From Corynebacterium yudongzhengii (GTDB taxonomy: Bacteria > Actinomycetota > Actinomycetes > Mycobacteriales > Mycobacteriaceae), in NCBI RefSeq assembly GCF_003065405.1, contig NZ_CP026947.1, positions 1,426,001-1,490,000 of the forward strand: DNA of 64,000 bases, read 5' to 3'. The notes beneath the pieces are model-generated. The model did no database searches. It was not told the origin of the DNA and was given only the letters and a program-made list of their open reading frames with translations. The position numbers and the translations under genes are program-made. Every line of letters starts with the position of its first letter. Position 1 is the stretch's first letter. This document shows positions 1,392 through 64,000 of this stretch, one piece after another.

Positions 1392-1496
1392 GCGCTAACG
1401 CTGGTCAAAAGGAGGGGCACCTAAAGGAGTACTGGTTTCGACCTCGCGAGAGCCCTTTCTATGAGGGTGAATTCGACCAGCGCTAACGCGCTATGG
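1392..1496 (+). repeat. Dispersed palindromic repeat, copy A
   Basis: Imperfect palindrome that starts GCGCTAACGCTGGTC and ends GACCAGCGCTAACGCG. It contains CTAAAGGAGTACTGG, a central TTTCGACC and CCCTTTCTATGAGGGTG. The left GGTCGAAA is GGTCAAAA here. The right flank (GCGCTATGGGC...) is also shared with copy C, so this copy belongs to the subtype without the TTAAAC tail. Confidence 0.85.
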
Positions 1497-1621
1497 GCGC
1501 TTGGGCGGCGGCGCGTGCGGGAAGCGTGCGGTGGGCATCTCGCCAGCCCCGTTCGCCTCAGCAGCCTCGCCAGCCCCAGCCGGTCCCGCCGAGGCGGCTC
1601 GAACCGGCAGCCCGTCCGATG

Positions 1622-1763
1622 CAACGCTAACGCTGGTCGAAAGGAGGAACACCTAAAGGAGCGCTAGTTTCGACCTCGCGAGAGCCCTTTCTATGAGGGT
1701 GAATTCGACCAGGCGTCTGGTTAAAGGCGTTAAACAACGTTTAGGTTTCTGTTGTGACGGATG
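1622..1763 (+). repeat. Dispersed palindromic repeat, copy B, with TTAAAC-type tail
   Basis: Same core as copy A (GGTCGAAAGGAGG, CTAAAGGAGCG, TTTCGACC, CCCTTTCTATGAGGGTG, TTCGACCAGG). It is followed by a tail with CTGGTTAAA, CGTTTAGGTTTCTG and TGTGACGGATG. The same tail follows copies D, F and G. About 70 bp of further conserved spacer then leads into copy C. Confidence 0.85.
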
Positions 1764-1832
1764 GGACTAGTGTGTGGATTGGGGTGGCACTTTTGGGAGC
1801 CTGCGGGCTTTCGGCTGGCCTGCGTGTGTGTT

Positions 1833-1938
1833 GCGCTAGCGCTGGTCGAAAGGAAGCACCCCTAAAGGAGTACTGGTTTCGACCGCGTGGAACTCCTTTC
1901 TATGGGGGTGATTTCGACCAGCGATAACGCGCTATGGG
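1833..1938 (+). repeat. Dispersed palindromic repeat, copy C
   Basis: Begins GCGCTAGCGCTGGTCGAAAG and ends TTTCGACCAGCGATAACGC plus GCTATGGG. The two halves pair as one long stem: AAGGAGT with ACTCCTT inside, CACCCC with GGGGGTG further out, and CGCTGGTCGAAA with TTTCGACCAGCG at the base. It is the second member of the B-C pair. Confidence 0.87.
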
Positions 1939-2104
1939 TATTTGACCGGGGTGCGTGCGAGTGGCGTACGTACGGTGCCCCACCAGTCCCGTTCGCCTCG
2001 GCGACCTCGTTTGCCCCACCAGTTTCGCTGGGAGGCTCGCACAGCCTGCCCCAGCCAACACACAGACCCTGCGAACGCACCGCCTCACATCACCCGCCCC
2101 GCCG

Positions 2105-2122
2105 ACTATGCGCTCGCATAGT
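2105..2122. repeat. Perfect 8-bp inverted repeat beside the doxX terminator
   Basis: ACTATGCG, two bases, CGCATAGT. It lies immediately past the U-run of the doxX terminator and may extend the 3' structure. No other role is visible. Confidence 0.45.
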
Positions 2123-2162
2123 AAAAGAGGAGCCCGTCAAACCCGAAGACGGACCCCTCTTA
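2123..2162 (-). terminator. Intrinsic terminator of the doxX gene
   Basis: Read on the minus strand, AAGAGGGGTCCGTC pairs with GACGGGCTCCTCTT around a nine-base loop (two G-U pairs), and a run of four T follows. It starts 18 bases after the DoxX stop codon. Confidence 0.75.
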
Positions 2163-2179
2163 AACAACCGCAAATGCGT

Positions 2180-3082
2180 CTAAGCGAACGGGTTGATACC
2201 CGTGCCGAACCACCACAGCAGCGCGAGTCCGGCGATGGCAACGACGATGAAGATCCAGGAGCTCGCCAGCGGCCGGCGCGCCCAGCTGCGTTCGAAGTCC
2301 AGGGAGTAGTAGCCCGGGCCCGTGAACTGCAGGGCGAGCGAAAGCCCGAACAGGACCACCGACAGCCAGACGGTCTCAGGCCAGGAGAAGACGTCGATAC
2401 CCGCGCCGGAGCCCGCCAGCTCATGCAGGGCGACGAAGCCGGTGACGACCGTCGCGACGGCGGCTGCAACCGGAGTGAGCAGGCCGAAGAGCAGGAAGAC
2501 GCCAGCGGCGAGCTGCATCGTCGGTACGGCGATCGAGAGCACCTCGGCAAGCGGGTAACCGGTGAATTCCTCGCGCAGGCCGGTCATGTTGGTGCTGGTG
2601 CCCAGCGAGAAGAATGTCCCGAGCGATTCCAGGATCAGCCATCCGCCCAGCAGCACGCGGGCGATGAGCAGGCCGAAGTCGATGGTGCCGCGGCGGGAGT
2701 CCTGCTCTTCGGCAACTGGGGCGACGGGTTCGGAGGCATAGTCGGTCTCGCCGAAGTAGCCCTCCTCGTTCACGCCGCTGGCGGCGGGGGCGACGACGGT
2801 GGCGTCGTCGGCAGGCGAGGCGAAGTCCTCGTCGCGGTAGGTCGAGCGGGAGCCGACGGCCGGGGCCTGGCCGGTCTCGCCTGCATCAGCGGCCCTAAAG
2901 GCGGTGGTGGCGTTCGTGTCCCGGGCGCTCGGATCGATCTGCTGGGGAGCGGTGCGGCCCGCACGCTCATAGAGCGAGGGACGGCGGGTCTCCTCCCCCG
3001 TATCGTCGGTCGCGGGTTCGTAGGTGGGCACGTCGAGGTCGTTGTCGTGGGCCCGATCGGGGCGGGGCATCTTGTCGCTCAT
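2180..3082 (-). CDS. DoxX-family membrane protein with long acidic N-terminal region
   Basis: The 300-residue protein has a charged, probably disordered cytoplasmic N-terminal half (residues 1 to about 130, rich in D, E, A, T and R). Four hydrophobic segments follow (starting near GTIDFGLLIARVLLG, then about 185, 220 and 275) and match the DoxX/SURF4-like four-helix fold. DoxX proteins are linked in actinobacteria to membrane redox and thiol homeostasis, but their biochemical role is poorly defined. The long N-terminal extension is common in corynebacterial DoxX proteins. The gene is followed by its own terminator, and the upstream HNH gene runs in the same direction with a 75-bp gap. The family call is firm. 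The function is not. Confidence 0.8.
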   Translation of the reverse strand: MSDKMPRPDRAHDNDLDVPTYEPATDDTGEETRRPSLYERAGRTAPQQIDPSARDTNATTAFRAADAGETGQAPAVGSRSTYRDEDFASPADDATVVAPAASGVNEEGYFGETDYASEPVAPVAEEQDSRRGTIDFGLLIARVLLGGWLILESLGTFFSLGTSTNMTGLREEFTGYPLAEVLSIAVPTMQLAAGVFLLFGLLTPVAAAVATVVTGFVALHELAGSGAGIDVFSWPETVWLSVVLFGLSLALQFTGPGYYSLDFERSWARRPLASSWIFIVVAIAGLALLWWFGTGINPFA

Positions 3083-3157
3083 AGCCTAGAGAATATGTGA
3101 CCCCACCTGGAATAGTTACGAGGTCGGCCGGCGTGCCGGATGCTGGTCGTGAGTCTT

Positions 3158-3871
3158 TCAGCACCTGCCGAGCTCTCGATCGAGCGCTTCCGCCTCGGCC
3201 GCGGTGACCCAGAGCTCGTAGCGGTGCTTGACCTCAATCTGGCGTTGGGCGTAGGTGCAGCGGTAGTTCTTGTTCGGCGGCAGCCAGGTCGCCGCGTCGC
3301 CGGCACCCTTCTGGCGGTTGACTGAGGTGCCCACTGCCTGCAGGTTCAGTGGGTCGTTGGCGAAGTCGCGGCGCTCGGTCTCGTCGAGCTGCTGGGCGCC
3401 TTTGGCCCACGCATCGCCAAGGGCGACGACGTGGTCGATCTCCACGTCCCCGCCGCCGCGGGCGAACTCGATCTCTTCTGCGGTGTAGGGGTCATACAGC
3501 ACGCCTTCTTCAACCAGGCAGCCGAAGGTGCCGTCGCGGATGACGGGATCTTTAAGGTCGCGGCGCAAAATGTCGTTGCGGGTATCGCAGCCGTTGCGCC
3601 CGTATTCGACGCCGACGTCGTCACTCCAGGCCTGGCCGAACTCCTCGCGCTCGTAGCCGGTCATGGGCGCACGTCCCTTGACCTCGAGTTCCGCGAGCAG
3701 CCGGTAGTGCTCACCTGGATCTTCCTCCTCGCCGCCGTCTTCGACCTCGGCGATGGTGGTGGCGGGGATGGGAGTGACGGCGCCGTCGCCAAGCGGGGTT
3801 TCATCGGCAACCAGCGTGCCGACGACAATAACCCCCACCAACGCCACCACGGACCAGAGCGTTCTTTTCAT
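3158..3871 (-). CDS. Exported HNH-family (DUF1524) nuclease
   Basis: The 237-residue protein starts with a short basic end and a hydrophobic stretch (MKRTLWSVVALVGVIVVGT), a likely signal peptide or anchor. The C-terminal half carries the DUF1524/HNH-like core: EIDHVVALGDAW with the metal-activating His, a downstream NDPLNLQAVGTSVNRQKG segment supplying Asn residues, and NYRCTYAQRQIEVKHRY. Actinobacteria commonly encode one or more such secreted nucleases, thought to degrade extracellular DNA. Cys residues (GNGCDTRN, CLVEE, YRC, GRC) could form disulfides outside the cell. It is transcribed away from the glutathionyl-hydroquinone-reductase-like gene. The nuclease family is well supported. The biological target is inferred. 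Confidence 0.83.
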   Translation of the reverse strand: MKRTLWSVVALVGVIVVGTLVADETPLGDGAVTPIPATTIAEVEDGGEEEDPGEHYRLLAELEVKGRAPMTGYEREEFGQAWSDDVGVEYGRNGCDTRNDILRRDLKDPVIRDGTFGCLVEEGVLYDPYTAEEIEFARGGGDVEIDHVVALGDAWAKGAQQLDETERRDFANDPLNLQAVGTSVNRQKGAGDAATWLPPNKNYRCTYAQRQIEVKHRYELWVTAAEAEALDRELGRC

Positions 3872-3957
3872 ATCCTGCTCAGGCTAGCAAGGCGTTGACA
3901 CGGACGAGGCTTCACCCTAGTGTTGTTGACACATCATCATTAGGAGGAGTGCAGATC

Positions 3958-5037
<1,080 letters not shown>

Positions 5038-5142
5038 CGAACGTCACGCCGACGTCTGATGTCTAGGCCGACATCGTTCCTGGTAAGAGGCCTATACCAA
5101 AATTCACTTAATCGAGGTGTTAATTCCATAGGCAGCATAGAT

Positions 5143-5148
5143 TACAAT
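5143..5148 (+). promoter_or_regulatory. Probable -10 element of the marR gene (TACAAT)
   Basis: TACAAT lies nine bases before the ATG at 5157, in an A/T-rich stretch standing out from the GC-rich surroundings. The spacing would give a leaderless or nearly leaderless mRNA, common in corynebacteria. No convincing -35 is visible. Confidence 0.4.
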
Positions 5149-5156
5149 CGCGTGCC

Positions 5157-5680
5157 ATGAATGCAGAACCTCGTTGGCTTAACCCCGAGCAGGCGCAGAC
5201 CTGGCTCGCGCTGTGGTCCGTCTTCGAATGGCTTCCTACCAGGTTGGAAGCGCAGCTGAAGCGGGATAGCGGAATCAATCTGCACGACTACTACGCCCTC
5301 GCGCAGATCTCAATGGCGCCCGAGAAAACCCTGACGATGACTAAGCTCGCCGCCTCCTGCGACATGTCCCCCCCTCGCGGCTCTCGCACATAGTGTCGCG
5401 TTTGGAAAACCGCGGCTGGGTACGCCGGCAGCCCTCCGAGGACGACCGACGCACCAACATCGCCAGCCTCACCGACGAGGGCCGGAAGTTCCTCCAAGAG
5501 GCCGCTCCCGGGCACGTCGAGCGGGTCCTCGAGCTCGTCTTCGACGGCCTTTCGGCGGAAGAGAACCTTCAGCTCGGCACGCTATTAGGAAAGATCCTGT
5601 CCCATCTCGATCCGCCGGCGCTGCCGCGCGTGACCTCGGCGGACGAGCGAGAGGACGAAGACGCAGAAGAAGAAGACTAA
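5157..5680 (+). pseudogene. MarR-family regulator, frameshifted at a C7 tract
   Basis: The first frame encodes the MarR N-terminus up to SCDMSP and then runs into TAG at 5391. The second frame resumes with LSHIVSRLENRGWVRRQPSEDD, the recognition helix and wing typical of MarR proteins, and continues to 5680. The break is at a run of seven C (5368-5374). Five C would give the expected family sequence DMSPSRLSHIVSRLE. If repaired, the protein is about 174 residues with a winged-helix domain and an acidic tail. It converges on the aldo/keto reductase with a 4-bp overlap. Sequencing error, phase variation and real loss are all possible. Confidence 0.8.
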
Positions 5681-6738
5681 CGCAGCCGCGAATTCGTCGC
5701 GCCTGCCCACTGGTTGATGCCGCCGTCGTGGGCGATGTCATCGATGGCTGCCAGCTCGTCGTCGCTGAAGGTGAGGTTATCCAGCGCGGAGAGGTTGGCG
5801 GTGAGCTGGTCGACGGACGAGGCGCCGATGACGGTGGAGGTGACGCGCTCGTCGCGAAGCACCCACGCCAGCGCCATCTGGGCGAGCGTCTGGCCGCGCT
5901 GGGCGGCCAGCTCGTTGAGGCGGCGGGCCATGTCGAGGTTGTCGTCGCTTAAGAAATCCTCGTCCAGCTTTCCCTCGCCAGCGCGGGAGCTAGCCGGCAC
6001 GCCATCGAGGTAACGATCGGTCAGCAGCCCCTGCGCCAGTGGCGAAAACGCGATCACGCCGAGTCCATGGGCGGCGGTTTCCTCGAGCAGTGAACGCCCG
6101 TCTTCGCCCGGGTTTTCAATCCAGCGGTTCAGAATTGAATAGCTCGGCTGGTGCACCAGCAGTGGGACGCCTTCTTCCGCCATGATCCGGGCGGCTTTGG
6201 CCGTCAGTTCCGGGCCATACGAGGAGATGCCGACATACAAGGCCTTGCCGCAGCGCACGATATCGCGCAGGGCGTGCATCGTCTCCTCCAACGGGGTGTC
6301 CGGATCCGGACGGTGGTGGTAGAAGATATCGACATAATCCACACCCAGGCGCTCCAGCGACTGATCCAGCGAGCTCATCAGATACTTGCGCGAGCCGCCA
6401 AAACCATAAGGGCCGTCCCACATGTACCAGCCGGCTTTCGACGACAGCACCATCTCGTCGCGGTGATGGCGGAAATCCTGACGCAGGATGCGCCCGAAAT
6501 TCTCCTCCGCCGACCCGGGCGGCGGGCCGTAGTTGTTCGCGAGATCGAAGTGGGTCACTCCCCTATCGAAGGCGGCGCGGATGATCTCGCGCTGGGTGGA
6601 TACCGGCCGGTCGTCGCCGAAGTTGTGCCACAGACCCAAAGAGATCGGCGGAAGCACGAGACCGCTACGACCACACGGGCGAAACTGGGCGTGGTCGTAG
6701 CGGTCGGAGGCAGGCAGATAAGGCTCGAACATGCTCAT
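5677..6738 (-). CDS. Aldo/keto reductase (YghZ/Gpr-like)
   Basis: The 353-residue protein has the AKR barrel with catalytic D65 and Y70 (HFDLANNYG), K101 (LSSKAGW) and H141/H142 (DIFYHHRPDPDT), and a C-terminal cofactor region with TSTVIGASSVDQL. The N-terminal sequence LPASDRY and the overall pattern match the E. coli YghZ/Gpr group, NADPH-dependent reductases active on L-glyceraldehyde 3-phosphate and methylglyoxal. It therefore probably detoxifies reactive aldehydes in the cytoplasm. It converges on and slightly overlaps the broken marR gene. The exact substrate is uncertain. Confidence 0.87.
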   Translation of the reverse strand: MSMFEPYLPASDRYDHAQFRPCGRSGLVLPPISLGLWHNFGDDRPVSTQREIIRAAFDRGVTHFDLANNYGPPPGSAEENFGRILRQDFRHHRDEMVLSSKAGWYMWDGPYGFGGSRKYLMSSLDQSLERLGVDYVDIFYHHRPDPDTPLEETMHALRDIVRCGKALYVGISSYGPELTAKAARIMAEEGVPLLVHQPSYSILNRWIENPGEDGRSLLEETAAHGLGVIAFSPLAQGLLTDRYLDGVPASSRAGEGKLDEDFLSDDNLDMARRLNELAAQRGQTLAQMALAWVLRDERVTSTVIGASSVDQLTANLSALDNLTFSDDELAAIDDIAHDGGINQWAGATNSRLR

Positions 6739-6789
6739 GCGGCCATTGTGCGTCAGCCGCTGAAGCCTCTGCCACGATTAGATGCGAAA

Positions 6790-8085
6790 CTAGTCGTCCT
6801 GCTTGAGGTCGGGGCGCTGGTCGGCGTCGAAACGCGAGTTACCGCTGGAGTCGAGGTCGTGGGCGACCTCTTCCTGGACGGACGGCCAGAGTTCCTTGCC
6901 GTCGACGAGCGAGCCCTTGGCCAGCTCGCGGACCTCCTGCTCCTGCTGCTTGCTCAGGCCTTCGTCCGGGTCGAGGTCGAGCTCGGCGAGCTGGGCGAGC
7001 TTCTTGCGGCGCGAGATCTCGGAGCTGATGCGCTTGCGGTTGCGCAGCCAGGAGATGCCCAGGGCGATGAGCATCGCGATGCCGATGTAGCCGATGAGCG
7101 GATAGACCCAGCCGATAAGGTCGGTGAAGCCAGCGAAGGAGATGACGAAGCCGATGAGGGTGACCACGATGAAGATGACGCGGAAGCGGCCCTCGTGCCC
7201 GGCGGAGAGGCGACGACCCAGGGCGTAGAACATGCCGATGGCGGTGTTGTAGATCATCGCGTAGAGGATCAGCGAGACGATCACGCCGATGGCCGGGTGC
7301 ATGGAGTCGAAGACGGCGAGCAGCGGGAAGTCGTTGCCGTCGACCTCCGGCAGGTTGAAAAAGAGGATGAACGCCAGGATGGCCAGAAGGGCGGAGAACA
7401 TGAAGCCGCCGAGGAGTCCGCCGACGCCGGCCTCGCGCGGGTTGAAGTAGTTGCCGCCGATCACGAGGATCATGGACAGACCCAGCATGAGCGCCATCGC
7501 GGTGTAGTTGACGGCGGACAGGATCCAGTTGCCCAGCACGCCCTGCGCCTCGTTCTGCTCGAGGGCCAGCGGCTCGAGCACGGAAGTATCGCTCGGCATG
7601 TTCAGGATGGTGATGATGCCGGCGGCGATCACGGCGATGATGATCAGCGGGGTGATCGCGGAGATCACGTTGGTGACCTTATCGACGTCCAGGAAACCAG
7701 ACACGATGACGGCCACGACCATGATGAACGAGCCAAGCCAGGTGGGGGTGTCGAACTGCTGCTCTAGGTTGGAGCCGGCGCCGGCGAGCATCACGAAGCC
7801 GATGCAGAACAGGGTGAGCATCGTCGTGATGTCGAGGAAGCGCGAGACGATCGGGTGGGTGGCGTTACGAAACACCGTCGAGTGCTCGCCCGCTAAATAG
7901 TAGGAGCCAAGCTGGAAGAGCAGGCCGCCGGAGAGCGTCATGACGATGCCGGCGACGATCACACCGATCAGGCCCGAGTAGCCGAAAGCGATGAAGTACT
8001 GAATGACCTCCTGACCGGAGGCGAAGCCCGCACCGACCAAGAGGCCAACAAAGGCGAGGGCAATGGTAAGCGATTTTCTGACCAT
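6790..8085 (-). CDS. YkvI-family integral membrane transporter
   Basis: The 431-residue protein has about ten hydrophobic helices from the N-terminus (SLTIALAFVGLLVGAGFASGQE) to about residue 340, then an acidic, charged cytoplasmic tail of about 85 residues. The GAGFASGQE motif in the first helix is characteristic of YkvI-like proteins, which sit in the amino acid/polyamine/organocation-like transporter group. The substrate is unknown. The start at 8085 is preceded by GAAGGAGAC-like Shine-Dalgarno sequence. A structured leader and inverted repeats upstream (8117-8210) suggest regulated expression. It is likely transcribed alone. Confidence 0.78.
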   Translation of the reverse strand: MVRKSLTIALAFVGLLVGAGFASGQEVIQYFIAFGYSGLIGVIVAGIVMTLSGGLLFQLGSYYLAGEHSTVFRNATHPIVSRFLDITTMLTLFCIGFVMLAGAGSNLEQQFDTPTWLGSFIMVVAVIVSGFLDVDKVTNVISAITPLIIIAVIAAGIITILNMPSDTSVLEPLALEQNEAQGVLGNWILSAVNYTAMALMLGLSMILVIGGNYFNPREAGVGGLLGGFMFSALLAILAFILFFNLPEVDGNDFPLLAVFDSMHPAIGVIVSLILYAMIYNTAIGMFYALGRRLSAGHEGRFRVIFIVVTLIGFVISFAGFTDLIGWVYPLIGYIGIAMLIALGISWLRNRKRISSEISRRKKLAQLAELDLDPDEGLSKQQEQEVRELAKGSLVDGKELWPSVQEEVAHDLDSSGNSRFDADQRPDLKQDD

Positions 8086-8116
8086 TGAAGGAGACCGTCC
8101 TCTGAATCATGGAAGA

Positions 8117-8150
8117 CCGCCCTAGCCACGCCGAAAAACGTGGAGGGCGG
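8117..8150 (-). promoter_or_regulatory. Strong leader hairpin upstream of the YkvI-like gene
   Basis: CCGCCCT plus CCACG pairs with CGTGG plus AGGGCGG (twelve pairs with a 2-base bulge) around an A-rich loop. It lies 32-65 bases before the start codon and has no T-run after it, so it looks like a 5' leader structure rather than a terminator. It may be an attenuator or an RNA switch. Confidence 0.5.
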
Positions 8151-8163
8151 AATCAATAGGTAT

Positions 8164-8210
8164 TTACGGTTGAACTACCGTACCAGGCTAACAGCGTCTA
8201 TCAACCGTAA
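8164..8210. promoter_or_regulatory. Inverted repeats TTACGGTTGA / TCAACCGTAA with an extra half-site
   Basis: TTACGGTTGA at 8164-8173 and its exact reverse complement at 8201-8210 are separated by 27 bp. A third half-site, ACCGTA (8177-8182), can pair with the first arm instead. On the minus strand TTGATA followed 16 bp later by TACGGT resembles a promoter embedded in these arms, so an operator for a dimeric repressor is plausible. Confidence 0.45.
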
Positions 8211-8273
8211 TCACAGCGGTTCCCGGAGTTGCTTTCATCACCCCTGCGTAATTCATACAGCTAATACACAGGA

Positions 8274-8301
8274 AAGGGGCACTGGTTTCCCAGTACCCCT
8301 T
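8274..8301 (-). terminator. Hairpin downstream of gatB
   Basis: AAGGGG-ACTGG pairs with CCAGT-CCCCTT with one mismatch and a four-base loop (GAAA when read from the minus strand), about 35 bases after the gatB stop. The following T-run is weak, so it is a probable rather than certain terminator. Confidence 0.55.
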
Positions 8302-8335
8302 AATGATGGCTCCCATGTGTGGGCTGAAAGTGAAG

Positions 8336-9841: not shown

Positions 9842-9917
9842 GGCACACATCCTACCGCGCAGCCCGGGACGTGCGCGGCAGGGGCTCGTTCGGTGGCAGG
9901 GGTCTTTCGGCAGGGGC

Positions 9918-10949: not shown

Positions 10950-10954
10950 GTCAG

Positions 10955-12319: not shown

Positions 12320-12394
12320 CTCGATTCATCCTAGAGCGCTGAGCTGGTTCGAGCGGCAGGTATGGCAGGCCGGCTAAGCTCGAGGAATATGGCA

Positions 12395-12712
12395 ATGATC
12401 GACATCAAGAAACCTGAAAACGTCAACACCGCTGCCGTGACCGCCCTGGGTCTGGTCGGCGGATGGCTCACCGCCCGTGAGACCGGCATCCGCCCGCTCG
12501 GCGGGGCGGTCCTGGCCGCCGCCGGTCTTTGGGCAGGGCGGAGCTGGGCCAAGAAGACGGATGCTCTGACCACCGCCGGTTTGAGCGCGCTGTATGTCGG
12601 CGCGTTCGGCGCCTCCCACCCGCTGGCAAAGAAGATCGGCTCCTGGCCGGCAGTGCTGGCCGTGACTGCCGTGACGTCTGGGGCGGCCTGGGCGGTCTCG
12701 GACCGAGCGTAG
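12395..12712 (+). CDS. Small alanine-rich hypothetical membrane-associated protein
   Basis: The 105-residue product starts at ATG 12395, eight bases after GAGGA; upstream in-frame ATGs at 12362 and 12389 lack proper spacing. It is rich in Ala, Gly, Leu and Thr and shows about three short hydrophobic stretches (VTALGLVGGWLTA, GGAVLAAAGLWAG, AVLAVTAVTSGAAW), suggesting a small membrane protein. Similar short proteins occur near pfkA in corynebacteria as far as I recall. I cannot assign a function. It is followed by a repeat-filled gap. Confidence 0.65.
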   Translation: MIDIKKPENVNTAAVTALGLVGGWLTARETGIRPLGGAVLAAAGLWAGRSWAKKTDALTTAGLSALYVGAFGASHPLAKKIGSWPAVLAVTAVTSGAAWAVSDRA

Positions 12713-12769
12713 GGCTCTGCTGGGGTTTGGGCTTGGTTTGAGCTTGGTTTAGGTTTGTTGGGTTATAGT

Positions 12770-12900
12770 GCGCTAGCGCTGGTCGAAAGGAGCCACCCCT
12801 AAAGGCGTCCTGGTTTCGACCGCGTGAGACTCCTTTCTATGAGGGTCCTTTCGACCAGGCATCTGGTTAAACAGCGTTTAAGTTTCTGCTGTGACGGATG
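12770..12900 (+). repeat. Dispersed palindromic repeat, copy D, with TTAAAC-type tail
   Basis: GCGCTAGCGCTGGTCGAAAG, CCCCTAAAGGCGTCCTGG, TTTCGACC, GACTCCTTTCTATGAGGGTC and TTTCGACCAGG, followed by the tail CTGGTTAAACAGCGTTTAAG and TTTCTGCTGTGACGGATG. Then comes a spacer (GTGCGTGGATTGGGGTGGC...) almost identical to the one between copies B and C. Confidence 0.88.
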
Positions 12901-12969
12901 AGGTTAGTGCGTGGATTGGGGTGGCGCTCCTGGGTGCCGGAGGACCTTCGGTTAGCCCGCGTGCGTGTT

Positions 12970-13057
12970 GCGCTAGCGCTGGTCGAAAGGAGCCACCCCT
13001 AAAGGAGTCCTGGTTTCGACCGCGTGAGACTCCTTTCTATGAGGGTGCTTTCGACCA
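12970..13057 (+). repeat. Dispersed palindromic repeat, copy E, fused to a pseudogene end
   Basis: GCGCTAGCGCTGGTCGAAAG, CCCCTAAAGGAGTCCTGG, TTTCGACC, then GACTCCTTTCTATGAGGGTG and CTTTCGACCA. AAAGGAGTC and GACTCCTTT form a perfect 9-bp inner stem. Its right edge (TCGACCA, 13051-13057) runs straight into coding sequence of the truncated P-loop gene, with a shared GTGGTCGA at the junction. Confidence 0.88.
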
Positions 13058-13853
13058 CGACGATGTCGTTGTATGCGCCGAGCGTGTCGACCATGTAGAC
13101 GCTCAGCGCGCGGATGGCCTCGAAGTTGAGCTTGAAGGTGGTGGCGTAGCCGAAGTCGGTCAAGTCGATCGCCTCGGCCGCGCCGGCATCCAGGTAGTGC
13201 ATACGGTCCTTACCGGCGCGCATCAAGCCGTTGATCGCGCAGGACATGACGGTGGACTTGCCGGAGTTCATCAACGTGCCCAGCACCGCGATGACGCGCG
13301 GGCGCTGCCGCGGTGCGGAGAGCACCGGCAGGTTCGCGTACGGGGCGCAGGCGAGCAGGTTGACGATGCCGTTGTGATCGGCAAGTAGGCCGATGGGTTC
13401 AATCTCCGTGGGGCCGATGAGCTTGGCATGCATCTCGGTCGCCACGCCGGCTACTCCACCGGCGGCCACCAGGTGGCACGGACGCAGGTCCGCGGGCACC
13501 TGCGCCACGAACTGATCGGCGGCGTAGCGATCCCCGTAGGCGAGCGCCACCAGCTTCTCCGGCTACAGGATGGCCTTGCGGGAGGAGGGCGTCTCGACGC
13601 GCTTGTGGTTTTCGATGTGCGTGATCTTCGCGATGGCCACGTCGCCGACGCAGGAGTGGACTTCGGCACCCGCGATGAGGCGGAAGTCAGCCGGCGCGGC
13701 GGCCACCCTCTGTGAGACAAACCGGGTGGTGTAGGCGAACTGAATGGGCCCGGGCAGCGCGATCTCGCGGCGGGCGCCGGTCCAGGCCGCTTCGTTGGCG
13801 TCGAGGGCCGTGGTGGAGCGGACGGTGGTGCGGGGGCTGACCATGGCGGTCAT
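13056..13853 (-). pseudogene. Degraded P-loop NTPase-like protein (DUF1611-like architecture)
   Basis: Two open stretches lie in the same frame, separated by one TAG at 13563-13565: 13853 down to KRVETPSSRKAIL, then PEKLVALAYGDRYAADQFVAQ onward. The second part has a Walker A-like GTLMNSGKST. From memory of such proteins, a short block is expected between NGLMRAG and the downstream DAGA segment; here they are nearly adjacent, suggesting an internal deletion. The C-terminal end stops at DIVVVE, where palindromic repeat copy E begins, and the rest of the gene is absent. Related proteins of about 340 residues couple a P-loop with a DUF1611-like domain. Their function is unclear. At least two independent lesions make this a decayed gene. 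Confidence 0.75.
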
Positions 13854-13955: not shown

Positions 13956-15437
<1,482 letters not shown>

Positions 15438-15440
15438 TGC

Positions 15441-16570: not shown

Positions 16571-16575
16571 CCCAC

Positions 16576-24113: not shown

Positions 24114-24160
24114 GGTGGTGTTTGCGATTTTGGTGGTTGTGTCACACCAGCCCCACCTTC

Positions 24161-24288
24161 CACAGCAGAAACTTGAACTCCGTTTAACCAGACGGCCGGT
24201 CGAAAGCACCCTCATAGAAAGGACTCTCGCGCGGTCGAAACCAGGACTCCTTAAGGGGGATCCCTTTCGACCAGCGCTAGCGCAACAC
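24161..24288 (-). repeat. Dispersed palindromic repeat, copy F, with tail
   Basis: Minus-strand copy: on the plus strand it reads tail CAGCAGAAACTTGAAC and CGTTTAACCAG, then GGTCGAAAGCACCCTCATAG, AAAGGACTCTCG, GGTCGAAACC, AGGACTCCTT, CCCTTTCGACCAGCGCTAGC. All core blocks are recognisable. Confidence 0.85.
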
Positions 24289-24359
24289 GCCCACGGGCTA
24301 ACCGACAGCCAGCAGACACCCGGGAACACCACCCCACCTCACACACCAACCCCGCCCGC

Positions 24360-24478
24360 CACAACAAAAACTTAAACGCCGTTTAACCAGACACCCGGTC
24401 GAAAGGACCCTCACAGAAAGGAGTCCCACGAAGTCGAAAGGACGCTTCCTTTCGACCGACTCCTTTCGACCAGCGCAA
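24360..24478 (-). repeat. Dispersed palindromic repeat, copy G, with tail and divergent core
   Basis: Minus-strand copy with tail CAACAAAAACTTAAACGCC and GTTTAACCAG, then GGTCGAAAGGACCCTCACAG, AAAGGAGTCC, GTCGAAAGGACG, CCTTTCGACCGACTCC, TTTCGACCAGCGC. It contains an extra GTCGAAAGG...CCTTTCGAC pair compared with the other copies, as if the inner arm had been duplicated. Confidence 0.82.
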
Positions 24479-24533
24479 AAGCAACACGCACACGGGCCAA
24501 CCCCACCAAACGCCAACCCCCAGAACAGAAAAC

Positions 24534-34673: not shown

Positions 34674-34687
34674 GTTCTTCGGTTGCC

Positions 34688-34726
34688 GGGCTCGGGTTTC
34701 GGGCTCGGGTTTCGGGCTCGGGTTTC
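34688..34726 (+). repeat. Three tandem 13-bp repeats after glgB
   Basis: GGGCTCGGGTTTC occurs three times in a row, 15 bases past the glgB stop. It may vary in copy number between strains. No coding role is seen. Confidence 0.8.
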
Positions 34727-34770
34727 CGGCGGATTTGGCCCGAATTCCATGCGACGATAACGTTTTCGCA

Positions 34771-34870
34771 CACCTGGTCGAAAGGAGTCACCCCTAAAGG
34801 AGTCCCGCGCGGTCGAAACCAGTACTCCTTTCTGAGCGACTGTTTTCGACCAGCGCTAACGCGGCATGCG
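34771..34870 (+). repeat. Dispersed palindromic repeat, copy H
   Basis: CTGGTCGAAAGGAGTCACCC, CCTAAAGGAGTCCCG, then GGTCGAAACCAGTACTCC, a degenerate right arm and TTTTCGACCAGCGCTAACGC with GGCATGCGGAAGG. The central block is inverted relative to copies A-E (GGTCGAAA instead of TTTCGACC). Confidence 0.85.
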
Positions 34871-34907
34871 GAAGGTTCCGGCCCGTTCCGCCGCAACAGC
34901 CAAAAAC

Positions 34908-44774: not shown

Positions 44775-45020
44775 GGCCAAAGTTGTAACGCTCAGCGTTC
44801 TCTCCCGTTCTTGGGCCGCGGGAGGTGCGGCGCCTCCCGCGGTGCGATGGACGTCTCAATACTCTCACTGCCGCCGCCGGGGATTCCTTCGCACATCAGC
44901 TCCGACGGAGACAGGGGAAAGCCACAACATGCACAGCTGCGGTTACCCGCACGAAATACTAGCAGTCTCTTGGAACCTTCGGTGTGCCCGGGTGAGCGTT
45001 TCCTTATTGTCTCCTAGAAA
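44775..45020 (-). promoter_or_regulatory. Upstream region and leader of the atp operon
   Basis: On the minus strand TGC-TAGTAT (extended -10, 44956-44961) stands in the most A/T-rich spot. A transcript from there would carry an untranslated leader of about 170 nt. In the leader CCGCGGGAGG (44816-44825) pairs perfectly with CCTCCCGCGG (44833-44842). No -35 box is clear. No gene is seen in this stretch. Confidence 0.45.
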
Positions 45021-52886: not shown

Positions 52887-52935
52887 TTAACGAGCACTGT
52901 TGTTGTCAAAATACCGGGCTGCTTCGTAGGCTGGA

Positions 52936-54051: not shown

Positions 54052-54052
54052 C

Positions 54053-55270: not shown

Positions 55271-55294
55271 ACAAGCTTGAAGAAAGAAGGCACC

Positions 55295-56363: not shown

Positions 56364-56372
56364 GACTGGCTT

Positions 56373-56642: not shown

Positions 56643-56682
56643 TGTGATCTCCTGGTCACGTCGATGGGCGAAAGAGTGGTCT

Positions 56683-58014: not shown

Positions 58015-58238
58015 TGGGGCCTTCCTGCCTCGTGGTTCTCTCGTGACATATACACAATCAACCCTGACGAAGACCAGTTACCTCGCAGGCAATGGACAGT
58101 AACCGAAGGGTGAACTCTTCGTGGTCAGGCAATGAATACTTCCGGAATCTTCTCCGAAAGCGGTGAGACCAGTCAAACTGTCCGCTACGCGGTGACAAAG
58201 GGCACTCCCCCGGCCACGCCTTTGTTACTCTCAGTTTC

Positions 58239-59000
58239 ATGAAACGCCGTGTCCTCGCCGCTGTCACCGCCCTACTCACCGGCGCCGGAGCGCTCACCGC
58301 CTGCGCCACGGGTGCAGACGAGAACCAACTGACCTTATTCGCCGCCTCCTCCACCCGCGTGCTCAACGAAGGCCTCGAAGAGCTCGCCGCCGACCACGAG
58401 CCGGCGGTCAACCTCGAGTTCAACAACGACGGCTCCAGCGGGCTGGTCAGCCAGCTGGCCGAGGGCGCCCCGGCCGATATCCTCATCACCGCCGATGAAG
58501 CCACGATGGAGACGGCGGTGGCGGACGGGACCGTCGGAAAGCCCCGGAAATTCGCCTATAACGAGCTGGTCATGGTCGTTCACCCGGATGCGGCCGGCGA
58601 GATCACCTCGATCACCGATGCCACCGCCGAGGGCGTCGATCTCATTCTCTGCGACGCGGAGGTGCCGTGCGGGCGCTTATCGGAGACCCTCGCGGAAGAA
58701 AATGACCTGGATTTCTCCCCCGTCTCGCTGGAGCACTCGGTAGGCGATGTGCTCGGCAAGGTCGTCGCGGGCGAGGCCGATGCCGGGTGGGTCTACCGCA
58801 CTGACGCGCACTCGGCGGGTGACGACGTCACCATCATCGACATCCCGCACGCCGAAGAACACCCCAACACGCTGTACGCGGCGGTCGTCGAGAATTCCCA
58901 GAACCCCGAGGCCGCCGAGAAGTTCCTGGATCTGCTGACCAGCGAGGAGGTCGCCGGTCTTTTGGAAGACGCCGGATTCCACCCCGCCGCCACCAACTAG
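58239..59000 (+). CDS. modA: Molybdate ABC transporter substrate-binding lipoprotein
   Basis: The 253-residue protein has a lipoprotein signal with C22 (GAGALTACATG) and the ModA core: LTLFAASSTRVLNEGLEEL, NNDGSSGLVSQLAEGAPADILITADEATMETAVADG, YNELVMVVHP and LILCDAEVPCGRL. It captures molybdate or tungstate outside the membrane for ModBC. No clear ribosome-binding site precedes the ATG, so a leaderless transcript is possible. The modBC fusion gene follows 11 bp downstream. Confidence 0.94.
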   Translation: MKRRVLAAVTALLTGAGALTACATGADENQLTLFAASSTRVLNEGLEELAADHEPAVNLEFNNDGSSGLVSQLAEGAPADILITADEATMETAVADGTVGKPRKFAYNELVMVVHPDAAGEITSITDATAEGVDLILCDAEVPCGRLSETLAEENDLDFSPVSLEHSVGDVLGKVVAGEADAGWVYRTDAHSAGDDVTIIDIPHAEEHPNTLYAAVVENSQNPEAAEKFLDLLTSEEVAGLLEDAGFHPAATN

Positions 59001-59011
59001 GATGAGCCTTT

Positions 59012-60907
59012 ATGGCTAACCCCCGCGAGCTGCGCCCCCGGCCTCCCCTGGTAATCGTGGTGCTCGGGGCATTGGCGGTCGCCTACCTCGTGCTGCCGAT
59101 TATGGCACTGGCGACCCGGGTGCCCTGGGGCCGCCTCGTCGAGATCCTCACTCGCCCCGAGGTCGCCGAGCTCATCGGGCTGACCCTTTCCGCCGCGGTG
59201 GCCAGCTCAGCGATCGTGGTGCTCATTGGCGTCCCGCTGGCTCTGGCCATCCAGTCGCTGCGCCGCGGGGCGCATATCGCGCGCCTGCTGGTGCTGCTGC
59301 CGCTGGCGATGCCGCCGGTCGTCGGCGGCCTGGCGCTCTCGGCGCTGATCGGCAACAACGGCATCCTGGCCGGTGCCCTCGACGTACTCAACCTCCAGTT
59401 CGCCTTCGCCTTCCCCGGCGTGGTGGCCGCCCACGTGTTCGTGGCCCTGCCTTTCGTGGTCGTCGCCGTCGACTCCGCCCTGCGCCAGATCGACTCCGAG
59501 GTCACCGCCTCGGCCGCCGGGATCGGCATGAGCCCCGCTGAGGTGTTGCGCAAGATCACGCTGCCGACGATCCGCCCCGCCATCGCCACCGGAGCGGGGC
59601 TGGCGTTTGCCCGCTCGCTGGGAGAGTTCGGCACCACTATCACTTTCGCCGGCTCCATGCCGGGTATCACCCGCACGATGTCGCTGGCCATCTACCTAGA
59701 GCGCGAAACCGACCGCGACGCCGCCTACGCGCTCTCCGCGGTGCTCATCGCCCTCGCGGTCATCGTCCTGGCGCTGGCCTTCGTGCCGACGCTGCTGCAC
59801 CGCTCCCCCACCCCGGTCGCGCGCACGCTCGCAGACATGGACACCGCGCGCCTGCGCACCCTGACGGTCCCGGAGGAACCCGCCGCGATCACCGCGCGTG
59901 CCGACGCCACCACCACCGCCTTTCCCGCCGGCAGCACCACCGCGGTGATCGGGCCCAACGGTTCCGGAAAATCGACGCTCAGCGGCATGATCGCCGGCCG
60001 GCTCACCGGCGCTGAGGTGAGCGTCGATGAGGTGCGCGTCGATACCCTGCCCGCCCACCGCCGCGGCATCGTGCTACTCACCCAGAACCCGGGGTTGCCG
60101 CGCGTCGGCACGGCCTTAGACATCCTCACCATGGTCACCCGGGATCAGCGGCGCAGCGACCAGCTTCTCGACGCCGCCGGCCTCCATCCGCTGCGCGACG
60201 TTCCCGTCGCCTCTCTCTCCGGCGGCCAGGCAGCGCAGGTCGCCTTGCTGCGGGCCCTGGCCTCGCGCCCGCGGGCTTTGATTCTCGACGAGCCGCTCGC
60301 CGCCATCGACGTGCACTCCTCTGCCCGCTGGAGAGCACTTTTGCGGGCGACCGCCGGTGATCGCACGACGGTGCTGGTCACCCACGACCTGCTGGATATA
60401 GCCGGGCTCTCCGATCGCATCGTCACCCTGGAGGCAGGGGTGCCGGTGGCCGCGGGGCCCACCCAAGAGATGCTCGAGGTCCCGCCGAATGACTTCGTCG
60501 CCGGGCTCGCCGGCATCAACCGGCTGGCGGGCACGGTGACGGCGGTGAATGCCGACACGGTCACGGTAGAGGCCTCCGGCGTGGAGCTCATCGGGCTCCC
60601 GACGGCGGGCTCGGCGCTCTCCGAAGGGGATTCTGTGGTCGCGACCGTGCTGCCAGAGGCCATCACGCTGCGCCTGGCTAGCGGGGGCGAAAAGGTGCCG
60701 ACGTCCGCGCGTAACCACTGGGTCGGCGAGGTCACGGATGTGCAGGCCGGCAGCGCGTCGGCGACGACGGTGGTAGTCGGCCTGGGTGAGCGTCTCGTGC
60801 GCGCGAGTGTGACCACCGCCGCGGTCGTCGAGCTCGGGCTCGCGCCGAAAAGCCGCGTCGAGCTGGTGACGAAGGCGCAGGCGATCACGATCCACCCGCG
60901 CCCCTAG
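59012..60907 (+). CDS. modBC: Fused molybdate ABC permease-ATPase (ModB-ModC)
   Basis: The 631-residue single frame has about six membrane helices (residues 15-260) with the ModB EAA-like loop ALRQIDSEVTASAAGIGMSPAEVLRKITLPTIRPAI. An ABC ATPase follows with Walker A GPNGSGKST (about 314), signature LSGGQAAQVALLRAL (about 402) and Walker B RALILDEPLAAIDVHSS. A C-terminal TOBE/Mop-like molybdate-binding domain begins near 510. ModB and ModC are usually separate; the fusion is also known in other actinobacteria. It imports molybdate using ATP with ModA, feeding the adjacent cofactor genes. It converges on thrB with 4 bp between the stops. Confidence 0.94.
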   Translation: MANPRELRPRPPLVIVVLGALAVAYLVLPIMALATRVPWGRLVEILTRPEVAELIGLTLSAAVASSAIVVLIGVPLALAIQSLRRGAHIARLLVLLPLAMPPVVGGLALSALIGNNGILAGALDVLNLQFAFAFPGVVAAHVFVALPFVVVAVDSALRQIDSEVTASAAGIGMSPAEVLRKITLPTIRPAIATGAGLAFARSLGEFGTTITFAGSMPGITRTMSLAIYLERETDRDAAYALSAVLIALAVIVLALAFVPTLLHRSPTPVARTLADMDTARLRTLTVPEEPAAITARADATTTAFPAGSTTAVIGPNGSGKSTLSGMIAGRLTGAEVSVDEVRVDTLPAHRRGIVLLTQNPGLPRVGTALDILTMVTRDQRRSDQLLDAAGLHPLRDVPVASLSGGQAAQVALLRALASRPRALILDEPLAAIDVHSSARWRALLRATAGDRTTVLVTHDLLDIAGLSDRIVTLEAGVPVAAGPTQEMLEVPPNDFVAGLAGINRLAGTVTAVNADTVTVEASGVELIGLPTAGSALSEGDSVVATVLPEAITLRLASGGEKVPTSARNHWVGEVTDVQAGSASATTVVVGLGERLVRASVTTAAVVELGLAPKSRVELVTKAQAITIHPRP

Positions 60908-60911
60908 CGCT

Positions 60912-61841
60912 TTAGGCCTGCCCGGAGGTGGCTTCGATCGGGCCGGCGACCTCCAGCTCGAGCACCCGCAGGCCATCGTCGCGGGCGGAGTCGAGGATGC
61001 GCTCTTCGACCGGCTCGGTGGACAAGACCATGATCGTCGGTCCGGCGCCGGAGAGGTAGGCGGCATAGCCGCGGTTGCGCAGGCGGTTGACCCACTCGGC
61101 GGTGACGGGAAGCACGTCGGCACGATAAGGCTGGTGCAGGCGATCGCGGGTACCTTCCGCCAACAAGTCGGGCCGGTGCTGGAGGGCCACGGTCATGACG
61201 GCCACGCGGGAGACGTTGAAGCGCGCGTCCTGGTGTGTGATCTGCTCCGGCAGCACCTTGCGCACCGCGTGGGTGGAGGCGTGGAAGTCCGGCACCAAGG
61301 CGGTGGCGTGGATATCCGGGTGGACGTCGATACCCGCGGCTTGGTAACGCGGCTCGCTTTTGCCGTCGACGGGCACGTCGGTCCAGCTCACCACAGCCGA
61401 TCCCAGAATCGAGGCGGCGGCATTATCGGGGTGTCCCTCGAAGGCACTGGCCAGCTGGACGAGCTGATCCGTGGTCAGCGGGTGATCCGCCAGCGCGTCG
61501 GCGGCGACGACGCCGGCAGCTGCCGCAGCTGCCGACGAGCCCAGCCCGCGAGACTGCGGGATCGTGTTGTGGCAGCGCACGCGCAGGCCTGGGGCCTCCA
61601 CGCCGCAGGCGGCCAGCCCGGAGTAGATGGCCCGGACGACGAGGTGGGAGCCGTCGCGGGGTAGATCTTCGGCCCCTTCGCCGAGGATTTCCACCTCGAG
61701 CCCGGAGCGGGTGACCTCGACTTCGACGGTGTCATAAATCGAAAGCGCCAGACCCAGCGTGTCAAAGCCCGGGCCGAGGTTCGCGGAGGAGCCGGGCACC
61801 CGCACGGTGACAAAGGTGCCGGGAACGAGTTCGATCGCCAT
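60912..61841 (-). CDS. thrB: Homoserine kinase
   Basis: The 309-residue GHMP kinase has the ATP loop [23 protein letters not shown], an N-terminal [25 protein letters not shown] and the C-terminal [15 protein letters not shown]. It phosphorylates homoserine for threonine synthesis. It lies 32 bp downstream of hom, the usual corynebacterial pair, and is probably controlled with it by the hom promoter. Confidence 0.97.
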
Positions 61842-61873
61842 GAAAGTGGGTTTCCGTTTCTAAACGTCGGGTT

Positions 61874-63214
61874 CTAGCCGTCGAGGCGGATGACACTGGT
61901 GATTTCCTGCACGTCGTCGAGCTCGGAGAGCTCCTTGACGATGTCCTGCAAATCCGATTCCCGCGCCTGGTGGGTGACCACGATCAGGCGGGCGTGCGAG
62001 TGGCGCTCCTGCTCCTCCTGGCGCACGGTGCGCAGGGAAATGCCCTTGCGGGAAAAGCGTGCGGAGAGATCCGCCAGCACGCCGGCGCGGTCCACGACGG
62101 ACATGTCGATGTGGTAGCGGGTGGGCACGTCCCCGAACGGGGTGAGCGGGAGCTCTGCGTAGGTGTTCTCGCCGGGGGCGCGACCACCGTGAACCTTGTT
62201 GCGGGCAGCGCCGACGAGGTCGCCGAGCACGGCGGACGCCGTCGGGGCGCCGCCGGCGCCGTTGCCGTAGAACATGAGGGAACCTGCTGCTTCTGCGTCG
62301 ACGTAGATGGCGTTGTAGGATTCGTTGACGCTCGCCAGCGGGTGGGCCTCCGGGATGAGCGTCGGGTGCACGCGGGCGGAGACGGACTCGTCGCCGACAG
62401 AGTCGGTGATGCGCTCACAGATCGCGAGCAGCTTGATGACATAGCCCGCCTTCTTCGCGGCCTCGATGTCGTCGGCGGTGATCTGCGTGATGCCCTCGCA
62501 GTGGACGTCGTCGAACTTCACGCGGGTGTGGAAGCCGAGCGACGCCATGATCGCGGCCTTCGAGGCGGCATCGTGGCCTTCGACGTCCGCGGTCGGATCG
62601 GCCTCCGCGTAGCCCAGGCGGGTGGCCTCGGCGAGGGCGTCGTCGTAGTCAGCGCCCGTGCTGGTCATGGCGTCCAGGATGTAGTTGGTGGTGCCGTTGA
62701 CGATGCCGAAGATGCGGTTGATCTGATCGCCAGCCAGGGAGCGGCGCAGCATGCCGACGACCGGGATGGCCGCCGCGACGGCCGCCTCAAAGTACAGGTC
62801 GACGCCGGCGGCGTCGGCGGCTTCGGCGAGTTCGTCCGCATGCGCGGCGACGAGGGCCTTGTTGGCGGTAACCACCGACTTGCCGGCGTTCAGCGCCGCG
62901 AGGACGAGCTCACGCGGGTAGTCGATACCACCGATGACCTCGACGACCACGTCGACATCATCGCGGGTGATCAGCGAGCGGGCGTCGTCGGTGAGCAGGT
63001 CACGGTCGACGCCGGGGCGCTCCTTCGAGAGATCCGAAACGGCCACTCCCTTGAGCTCCAGGGGGCCACCGATGCGGTGGGTGAAGTGCTCAGCATTTTC
63101 GGACATGAGACGAATCACGTCAGTACCCACAGTGCCCATACCGAGCACAGCGACGCCGACGGGCTCGCCGGTTCCCTTGCCCGGGTTGAAGCTGGACTGG
63201 TTGTTCGCCGTCAT
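61874..63214 (-). CDS. hom: Homoserine dehydrogenase
   Basis: From ATG 63214 (AAAGGAG about six bases upstream) the product is 446 residues. The NAD(P) loop is VAVLGMGTVGTDV. The catalytic and substrate region has NGTTNYILDAMTSTGADYDDALAEATRLGYAEADPTADVEGHDAASKAAIMASLGF. A C-terminal ACT domain (IDMSVVDRAGVLADLSARFSRKGISLRTVRQEE) mediates feedback inhibition by threonine. It reduces aspartate semialdehyde to homoserine, the branch point to threonine and methionine. It is first in the hom-thrB operon. Confidence 0.97.
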   Translation of the reverse strand: MTANNQSSFNPGKGTGEPVGVAVLGMGTVGTDVIRLMSENAEHFTHRIGGPLELKGVAVSDLSKERPGVDRDLLTDDARSLITRDDVDVVVEVIGGIDYPRELVLAALNAGKSVVTANKALVAAHADELAEAADAAGVDLYFEAAVAAAIPVVGMLRRSLAGDQINRIFGIVNGTTNYILDAMTSTGADYDDALAEATRLGYAEADPTADVEGHDAASKAAIMASLGFHTRVKFDDVHCEGITQITADDIEAAKKAGYVIKLLAICERITDSVGDESVSARVHPTLIPEAHPLASVNESYNAIYVDAEAAGSLMFYGNGAGGAPTASAVLGDLVGAARNKVHGGRAPGENTYAELPLTPFGDVPTRYHIDMSVVDRAGVLADLSARFSRKGISLRTVRQEEQERHSHARLIVVTHQARESDLQDIVKELSELDDVQEITSVIRLDG

Positions 63215-63288
63215 GAACACTCCTTTTGAGATCCGTTTCGGTTCTTATCGACTCGTTCCGGGACAGATCCCGGTCACCGGCACCAGTG

Positions 63289-63304
63289 TAGACAATGCTG
63301 TCTA
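63289..63304. promoter_or_regulatory. McbR-like operator upstream of hom
   Basis: TAGAC-AATGCT-GTCTA, 75 bp before the hom start. It is exactly the TAGAC-N6-GTCTA form described for McbR, the methionine and cysteine regulator of C. glutamicum, whose known targets include hom. On the minus strand it overlaps a plausible promoter (ATGACG, 17 bp, TACACT). Confidence 0.75.
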
Positions 63305-63400
63305 ACACGTCATTGTTCGGGGGCCCTCATTGCAGGGGGCTTTGGTTTGCTTGTTGCACTGTGGGGGCTGTGGGGCACGCGCCTCCGTTGGGGAGCATGG

Positions 63401-63478
63401 AGCACTAGCGCTGTCGCGCGGGTGGAAGGAGGAGTCCTTTCGGTACGGGCGCTTTCGACCAGCGTTAGCGCTGTATGG
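63401..63478 (+). repeat. Dispersed palindromic repeat, copy I, short form
   Basis: CACTAGCGCTGTCGCGC, GGAAGGAGGAGTCCTTTCGG, then GCTTTCGACCAGCGTTAGCG and CTGTATGGCGG. The inner loop segment is shortened and the left GGTCGAAA is degenerate, but the outer arms and right flank match other copies. Confidence 0.72.
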
Positions 63479-63588
63479 CGGGGACGTCTCAACCGTCGCG
63501 GGAGCCTCACAGAAGGGGCGGGTAGGGCGGATGGGGTGGATGGTGCGAATGGCCGGCGATACTGAGCTCCTACCCCTCCGGACCCTCG

Positions 63589-63655
63589 TGTTGCGCTAAC
63601 GCCGGTCGAAAGGACCCTCTACTAAACGAGTCCCACGGGGTCGAAAGGAAGAGTC
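63589..63655 (+). repeat. Dispersed palindromic repeat, copy J, left half only
   Basis: GTGTTGCGCTAACGCCGGTC followed by GAAAGGACCCTCTACTAAAC, GAGTCCCACG and GGTCGAAAGGAAGAGTC; the right arm is missing. It is a truncated copy. Confidence 0.72.
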
Positions 63656-63708
63656 TAGGGCGCAGTTGACCCCTGGCCCCTCTGTAGCGCTCGAACACAA
63701 ATGCTTGT

Positions 63709-63802
63709 AGGAAGAACTTTGAAGGACGCAAAATCAGGCCATTTTCTCGCACAAACCCTTGAGGGACGCGCCCTTCAAGCATCTTCCTTTAAGGGTTTGT
63801 GC
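63709..63802. repeat. Two interleaved inverted repeats
   Basis: GGAAGAACTTTGAAGGACGC matches the reverse complement of GCGCCCTTCAAGCATCTTCC at 16 of 20 positions, and GCACAAACCCTT is exactly complementary to AAGGGTTTGTGC. The arms alternate (first-a, second-a, first-b, second-b), so both cannot form without a pseudoknot. Confidence 0.6.
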
Positions 63803-63885
63803 AGCAGCAACGTCACCCCGCGCTGAAAAGCGGACCCACAGAACGTCAAACACCCTAACGACATGCGGCGGTAGCGCGCCCACAC

Positions 63886-64000
63886 GCCTGGTCGAAAGGA
63901 GGCGGTCGAAAAGAGGGTCGGTTTCGGAGTCCTTTCGACTTCGCAGGACTCCTTTCTGTCAGGGTGTTTTCGACCAGCGCTAGCGCCGCATGCCGGAACC
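63886..64000 (+). repeat. Dispersed palindromic repeat, copy K
   Basis: GCCTGGTCGAAAGGAGG, CGGTCGAAAAGAGGG, TCCTTTCGACTTCGCAGGAC, CTCCTTTCTGTCAGGGTG and TTTTCGACCAGCGCTAGCGC with GCATGCCGGAACC. It ends at the window edge, so it may extend further. Confidence 0.8.

Follow-up and report, generated by a model that had tools for sequence, protein, structure and literature searches.

The chromosome of Corynebacterium yudongzhengii carries many copies of an imperfect palindrome, and copies of the same palindrome bound a gene for a protein that combines an AbiEi-like domain with a PD-(D/E)XK nuclease domain. The association of such genes with palindromes is strong and recurs in Corynebacterium and in other actinobacterial genera. 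With moderate confidence, we regard the elements as REP/BIME-like non-autonomous dispersed palindromes whose likeliest driver is this nuclease, which is unrelated to RAYTs.

The window, the whole 64-kb stretch analysed (positions 1426001-1490000 of a genome that forms a single contig of 2,511,302 bp), contains 11 copies in a profile search. Eight of these are full-length, one (63888-63977) is divergent, and the two near 63.4-63.7 kb are partial or degenerate. No profile matches were found in shuffled and reversed sequence, and a covariance model recovers ten of the 11. A preliminary description of the window had listed eleven copies sharing common blocks, and both the copies and the blocks proved real in the profile search and alignment. 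It had also placed them in the four longer convergent gaps and upstream of hom, leaving five very short convergent gaps empty; the gene calls agree, with eight, three and no copies, respectively. Its wording that every long convergent gap is filled holds within the window but not in a wider genome sample, where elements occupy 24 of the 45 convergent gaps that have 60 bp or more of element-free sequence.

Copies 1 to 3, all on the plus strand, lie at 1401-1480 (core CTGGTCGAAA..TTTCGACCAG; 90.4 bits with the covariance model), 1633-1712 (93.6 bits) and 1842-1921 (102.2 bits) in the convergent gap 1262-2179; around the third of these, positions 1833-1932 fold at -49.4 kcal/mol (z -6.0). Copy 4 (12779-12858, plus strand, 103.7 bits) is in the convergent gap 12713-12998, and copy 5 (12979-13058, plus strand, 105 bits), 200 bp past it, extends into the called 3' end of a minus-strand ORF at 12999-13550. 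Convergence at 12.7-13.0 kb depends on a low-scoring 105-aa ORF (12395-12712) with no Pfam match. The convergent gap 24114-24533 holds copies 6 (24196-24274, 94.3 bits) and 7 (24395-24473, 69.8 bits, inner arm rearranged), both on the minus strand, as is copy 8 (34774-34853, 88.3 bits), the sole copy in the gap 34674-34907 between glgB and a thioredoxin/TPR gene, neighbours assigned by Pfam. The remaining three copies are upstream of the homoserine dehydrogenase gene hom (61874-63214, minus strand, Pfam), in a gap that is probably tandem. Copy 9 is partial (63414-63475, minus strand; genome 1489414-1489475), scoring 31.9 bits on one strand and 33.0 bits on the other with nhmmer and giving no covariance-model match at E 0.01; copy 10 is degenerate (63602-63698, minus strand, 31.5 bits), and copy 11 is the divergent one (plus strand, 57.7 bits).

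The elements extend far beyond the eleven copies of the window. A genome-wide search of the kind the preliminary description had called for, using the core covariance model, located at least 149 distinct places in the 2.51-Mb chromosome, a lower bound obtained by scoring the best 150 of 1611 candidates. Placement was assessed by profile search in the window together with 39 stretches of 20 kb at even spacing, about a third of the genome, which yielded 82 elements and none in shuffled or reversed sequence. Nine of the 82 were left out of the gap counts, eight at stretch ends and one overlapping a called gene. Elements occupied 24 of 117 convergent, 11 of 466 tandem and three of 117 divergent gaps (odds ratio 10.5, p 3.5e-11), counts that carry some error from a home-made gene caller. 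When the count was limited to gaps with 60 bp or more of element-free sequence, the tandem and divergent counts were 11/183 and 3/98, and the convergent excess was larger (Fisher odds ratio 21.8, p ~1e-14). The enrichment at convergent 3' ends for which the preliminary description had proposed a test is present in this third of the genome. Pairs and triplets of copies are a recurrent arrangement; 54 spacings fall below 450 bp, of which 26 are 207-212 bp and seven are 199-201 bp.

Matches to the element were rare in the other genomes searched. When the best 23 candidates per genome were scored under stricter filters, the core model matched two of 201 Corynebacterium genomes, the source genome and one other (G155) with two weak hits, and no match was found in 40 other genomes (24 Corynebacterium and 16 of the same order). 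Exact core patterns had no match among viral and named genomes, a set that may leave out the source genome itself. At the glgB locus (34.7 kb), where one element sits in the 234 bp between the convergent genes, the gene pair is also convergent in 19 of 25 Corynebacterium or related loci, with the closest named glgB relatives up to 75% identical. The tblastn ends at these 19 loci are at most 66 bp apart in nine, 93-174 bp apart in three and 0.4-2.6 kb apart in seven. By this measure the gap appears larger in the source genome than in many relatives, and insertion alone is one possible cause, against which the ten loci with ends 93 bp or more apart weigh.

The imperfect palindrome has the consensus CTGGTCGAAAGGAGnCACCCCTAAAGGAGTnCTGGTTTCGACCGCGCGAGACTCCTTTCTATGAGGGTGCTTTCGACCAG and a core of 80 nt. 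In an alignment of 39 sequences (A1: copies without insertions or duplicates, leaving out 24395-24473), the inner TTTCGACC block is invariant except for its last base in two copies, and paired positions hardly covary, one of 15 pairs showing a double compensatory change (RNAalifold). Because of this near-invariance and scant covariation, a DNA element or recent spread fits better than a selected RNA structure. Outer blocks (GCGCTANCGC and CATG) lengthen the inverted repeat in many copies. Of six sequences folded, two of which are the two strands of one copy, five had greater stability than shuffles (z -3.1 to -6.0), the exception being copy 1 with z -0.64. A bidirectional intrinsic terminator, one of the roles considered in the preliminary description, finds no support in the two gaps scanned for loops of 3-8 with a T run after them, which gave no terminator-like site against 0.7 expected by chance in each. 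At the gathering score no element matched Rfam, the sole match in the window being an atpB RNA elsewhere.

A search of the source genome for the RAYT/Y1 transposase domain (PF01797) was negative, while the same search was positive in five of 14 control genomes. The RAYT with matching ends that the preliminary description had proposed to look for was thus not found, but a different gene carrying the same palindromes at its ends was. Beyond the window, near 2.22 Mb, two pairs of elements surround a 326-aa ORF (genome 2222060-2223040). The arms are 378-bp inverted repeats, 96% complementary, with two element copies each. Two convergent ORFs border the module, their stop codons 23 and 25 bp away from it. 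Of the three roles first suggested for the palindromes (mobile element, terminator or RNA-stabilising hairpin, chromosome-organising site), a mobile REP/MITE-like one is the best supported, though not by way of a RAYT.

The 326-aa protein has an N-terminal AbiEi-like DNA-binding domain and a C-terminal PD-(D/E)XK nuclease domain of the Vsr/EDxHD type. It matches AbiEi profiles (PADLOC), DUF559 just above the cut-off and REase_MTES_1575 below it; used as a profile, it matches one solved endonuclease-like protein, 3hrl. Its AlphaFold2 model (mean pLDDT 89.1) shows an AbiEi antitoxin fold in residues 23-208 and, after it, the nuclease fold of I-Bth0305I and Vsr. With Foldseek alone, no match to this model fell under E 0.001; the probabilities it assigned to Rv2827c, I-Bth0305I and Vsr were 0.97-1.00. 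Fold and conserved acidic residues together place the protein in the Vsr/EDxHD PD-(D/E)XK group, and it is predicted to cut DNA.

Relatives of the nuclease gene are found in 166 of 242 Corynebacterium genomes (E <= 1e-10) and, across the class, in 180 of 345 genomes representing 84 of 127 genera (E <= 1e-20). Taking the best locus from each of the 30 best-matching Corynebacterium genomes, which is not a random draw, and counting hairpins scoring at least 13 within 400 bp of the gene, a hairpin lies beside 21 of 30 nuclease genes versus nine of 114 control genes from the glgB locus; at a stricter score of 16 the counts are 18/30 versus 3/114. One of the nine genes without a hairpin by this measure is the source genome's own, the elements of which are too imperfect to score. 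Thirteen of 20 further Corynebacterium genes have a hairpin, and six of the 20 are flanked by one and the same repeat. In other genera of the class, the best matches gave 19/29 versus 39/208 controls, and at score 16 10/29 versus 20/208. As genes at the glgB locus are tightly packed, the comparison was repeated with isolated controls, that is genes with free space on both sides. Among these, two of ten at the Corynebacterium loci had a hairpin (none at score 16), as did five of 43 in other genera (likewise five at score 16). The excess persists in Corynebacterium (p 0.009 at score 13, 0.0008 at score 16) and in other genera (p 3e-6 and 0.036), where at score 16 it is modest.

The same repeat flanks both sides of the gene in eight of 30 Corynebacterium and 20 of 28 other-genus cases versus two of 331 controls and none of 53 isolated controls. 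Two of the eight (L216, L220) are simple GC-rich repeats, and for Corynebacterium alone the difference from isolated controls (8/30 versus 0/10) is not significant (p 0.17). The flanking palindromes are not the same in different genomes. Of 12 other PF18741/PF04480 hits three adjoin palindromes, so the association seems to peak around the subfamily to which the source genome's own gene belongs. One of the three, a second gene of the source genome (L178), is followed by a different palindromic repeat, which has few copies in the sample.

Flanking palindromes are multicopy in many of the gene-bearing genomes. In Corynebacterium, 19 palindromes were joined and searched in 25 genomes, with flanking copies counted and the best 15 candidates per genome scored. 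The cognate palindrome was present at three or more places in 12 of the 20 gene-bearing genomes from which the palindromes came (G092 being counted with the palindrome of G088, and two of the three G170 places being adjacent) and at least at one or two places in the other eight (G088, G185, G075, G236, G137, G018, G061 and G019). Of five further genomes, G000 (the source genome), G006, G015 and G111 had no match and G012 had one. Similarly, 14 joined palindromes from other genera were searched in 17 genomes, with at most the best 27 candidates per genome scored and both strands counted. Thirteen of the 14 genomes of origin had at least 9-54 matches to any of the palindromes; the other, G287, had four, not above what the flanking pair yields on both strands, and G000, G213 and G275 had none. 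Palindrome similarity follows protein identity, but so do the outer flanks (26 versus 25 of 27 pairs at 60-70% identity). Shared location explains this similarity, and palindrome-protein coevolution cannot be told apart from it.

The elements resemble REP/BIME-RAYT systems in being high-copy extragenic palindromes with species-specific sequences that form clusters and prefer convergent or downstream positions, as those systems are described in two reports (PMC2817692; PMC3733652). RAYTs are flanked by two inverted REPs, which they are thought to spread, according to one (PMC2817692), and the other has REPs mostly in convergent and unidirectional gaps (PMC3733652). Copy numbers above about 100 per genome are likewise shared, and so is a gene between two inverted palindromes, here the 378-bp arms, although the flanked gene is not a RAYT. 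Unlike REPs, with 20-40 nt, the elements have an 80-nt core, and the source genome has no Y1/HUH match, the flanked gene instead encoding a PD-(D/E)XK nuclease with an AbiEi-like domain. Dispersed palindromes also include the CGTC-tagged REPs, which apparently go without a dedicated transposase according to the same report (PMC3733652), whereas a candidate partner gene exists here. ERIC (127 nt; 69-127 nt in Y. pestis) and YPAL (130-169 nt) are also stem-loop-forming, mostly intergenic repeats; the accessible text on them mentions no partner gene (PMC2267715), and Rfam gave no match to our elements. The modelled nuclease domain shares the fold of I-Bth0305I and Vsr but is fused to an AbiEi-like domain, and its gene is bounded by dispersed palindromes. 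The AbiEi-like part is akin to type IV antitoxins in fold and PADLOC profiles and differs from them in its fusion to a nuclease.

Under the explanation we favour, the nuclease probably mobilises the palindromes. The AbiEi-like domain would recognise the palindrome arms, the Vsr-like nuclease would nick or cut either the palindrome, in paired or extruded form, or its target, and through repair the palindrome would then be copied to new intergenic sites in a homing-like or REP-like manner. Build-up in convergent gaps would reflect tolerance there, with promoters and coding sequence spared. As the enzyme is unrelated to RAYTs, the chemistry would have to differ. There is about an even chance that these modules form an unrecognised, actinobacteria-wide class of selfish repeats, in which an AbiEi-like/Vsr-like nuclease gene is bounded by its own palindrome family, different in each gene lineage, and the nuclease copies these palindromes through the chromosome by cutting and repair rather than HUH transposition, the REP/RAYT layout having been reached independently. 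The layout alone is REP/RAYT-like; what would make the kind new is that the defining enzyme of REP/RAYT systems was not found and that the candidate partner comes from another enzyme superfamily. RAYTs are the one class of REP partner enzyme found in the surveyed portion of the literature, and no link between DUF559/AbiEi nucleases and palindromic repeats appeared in the titles and abstract openings surveyed outside subscription journals. If a second, unrelated nuclease partner exists, this parasitic layout evolved more than once, orphan palindromes gain a testable source, part of the intergenic sequence in some actinobacteria may be explained, and a widespread protein family gains a testable role.

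Alternatively, the palindromes could be hairpins selected by the host at convergent 3' ends, as bidirectional terminators or RNA-stabilising stem-loops, and spread by gene conversion with no dedicated enzyme. The bias to convergent gaps and the stability of five of the six folds are what such hairpins would give; however, the scan of two gaps (loops of 3-8 with a T run only) gave no terminator-like site, compensatory change is confined to the one pair in 15, the element is missing from 93 of 117 convergent gaps, and the association with nuclease genes is left unexplained; this account is unlikely. Still less probable is that the elements are MITEs of an ordinary DDE insertion sequence, present or former. 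Repeats of ~950 bp in the sample, ~83-84% identical to the copy in L086, have broken frames and look transposase-like by eye, and the arms of the elements are TIR-like. Against this, no target-site duplication of 2 bp or more was seen at the seven elements with CATG at both ends, few enough to make this a weak test; the sole module found with the same bounding palindromes carries the nuclease gene, and comparable modules with unrelated palindromes recur in other genera.

It is similarly improbable that the gene-flanking palindromes are operators or passengers of that gene and that the dispersed copies arose in another way and serve a different role, for example as binding sites of a nucleoid protein. 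AbiEi binds inverted repeats and autoregulates, according to one report (PMC3985639), and the inner TTTCGACC block is conserved in sequence more than its pairing covaries. Yet the repeat also lies downstream of many nuclease genes, and a separate candidate operator exists upstream: the motif CTGTGGAT/C (CTGTGGAY) or its complement occurs in the region from -300 to +60 around the start of 44 of 58 nuclease genes versus ten of 368 controls. Both orientations are present at 14 nuclease genes and no controls. The motif frequently forms an inverted pair, for example CTGTGGATAAC..GTTATCCACAG. The motif is a candidate for either a DnaA site, TTATCCACA and TTGTCCACA being what we take to be DnaA-box forms, or the AbiEi-like domain's own operator.

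Upstream of the nuclease genes, the AbiEi-like and PD-(D/E)XK gene relatives of Corynebacterium and other genera (L210-L269), the motif CTGTGGAY is conserved, being present at 44 of 58 genes versus 10 of 368 controls. Judged by its sequence, the motif resembles a DnaA box. At loci L246, L252, L253, L255, L257, L259, L264, and L268 of other genera, the modules of nuclease gene and flanking palindromes carry a common tag, close to ATGATCAYGTTCACC, at their outer ends; its copies are inverted relative to each other, an arrangement similar to that of transposon ends. In C. yudongzhengii, a tandem 104-bp palindromic array (CGTCGGTAGTTACTTGAAT..) lies 3' of the second DUF559 gene (L178), starting about a dozen bases past its stop codon.

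The sample of the C. yudongzhengii genome (39 evenly spaced 20-kb stretches plus the window) also holds other repeats. A second family, separate from the main palindromes, includes two perfect palindromes, ACTATGCCGCGGCATAGT and TTACGCACGTGCGTAA, and occupies about 37 bins of 150 bp (for example in L066, around 7685-8112). A third, with the pattern CACAAACCCTTGAAGGAAGAA..TTCTTCCTTCAAG..ATTTGTG, occupies about 23 such bins and occurs in the same gaps as the main palindromes, as in the L080 convergent gap starting at 6138; a spacer at 63.7-63.8 kb of the window is similar to it. Repeats of about 950 bp are found in L060, L063, L086, L092, and L097, with about 83-84% identity to the L086 copy taken as reference; their reading frames are broken and, by appearance, transposase-like. 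Within the window, an atpB leader RNA (RF02916) matches at 44782-44914 on the minus strand (116 bits).
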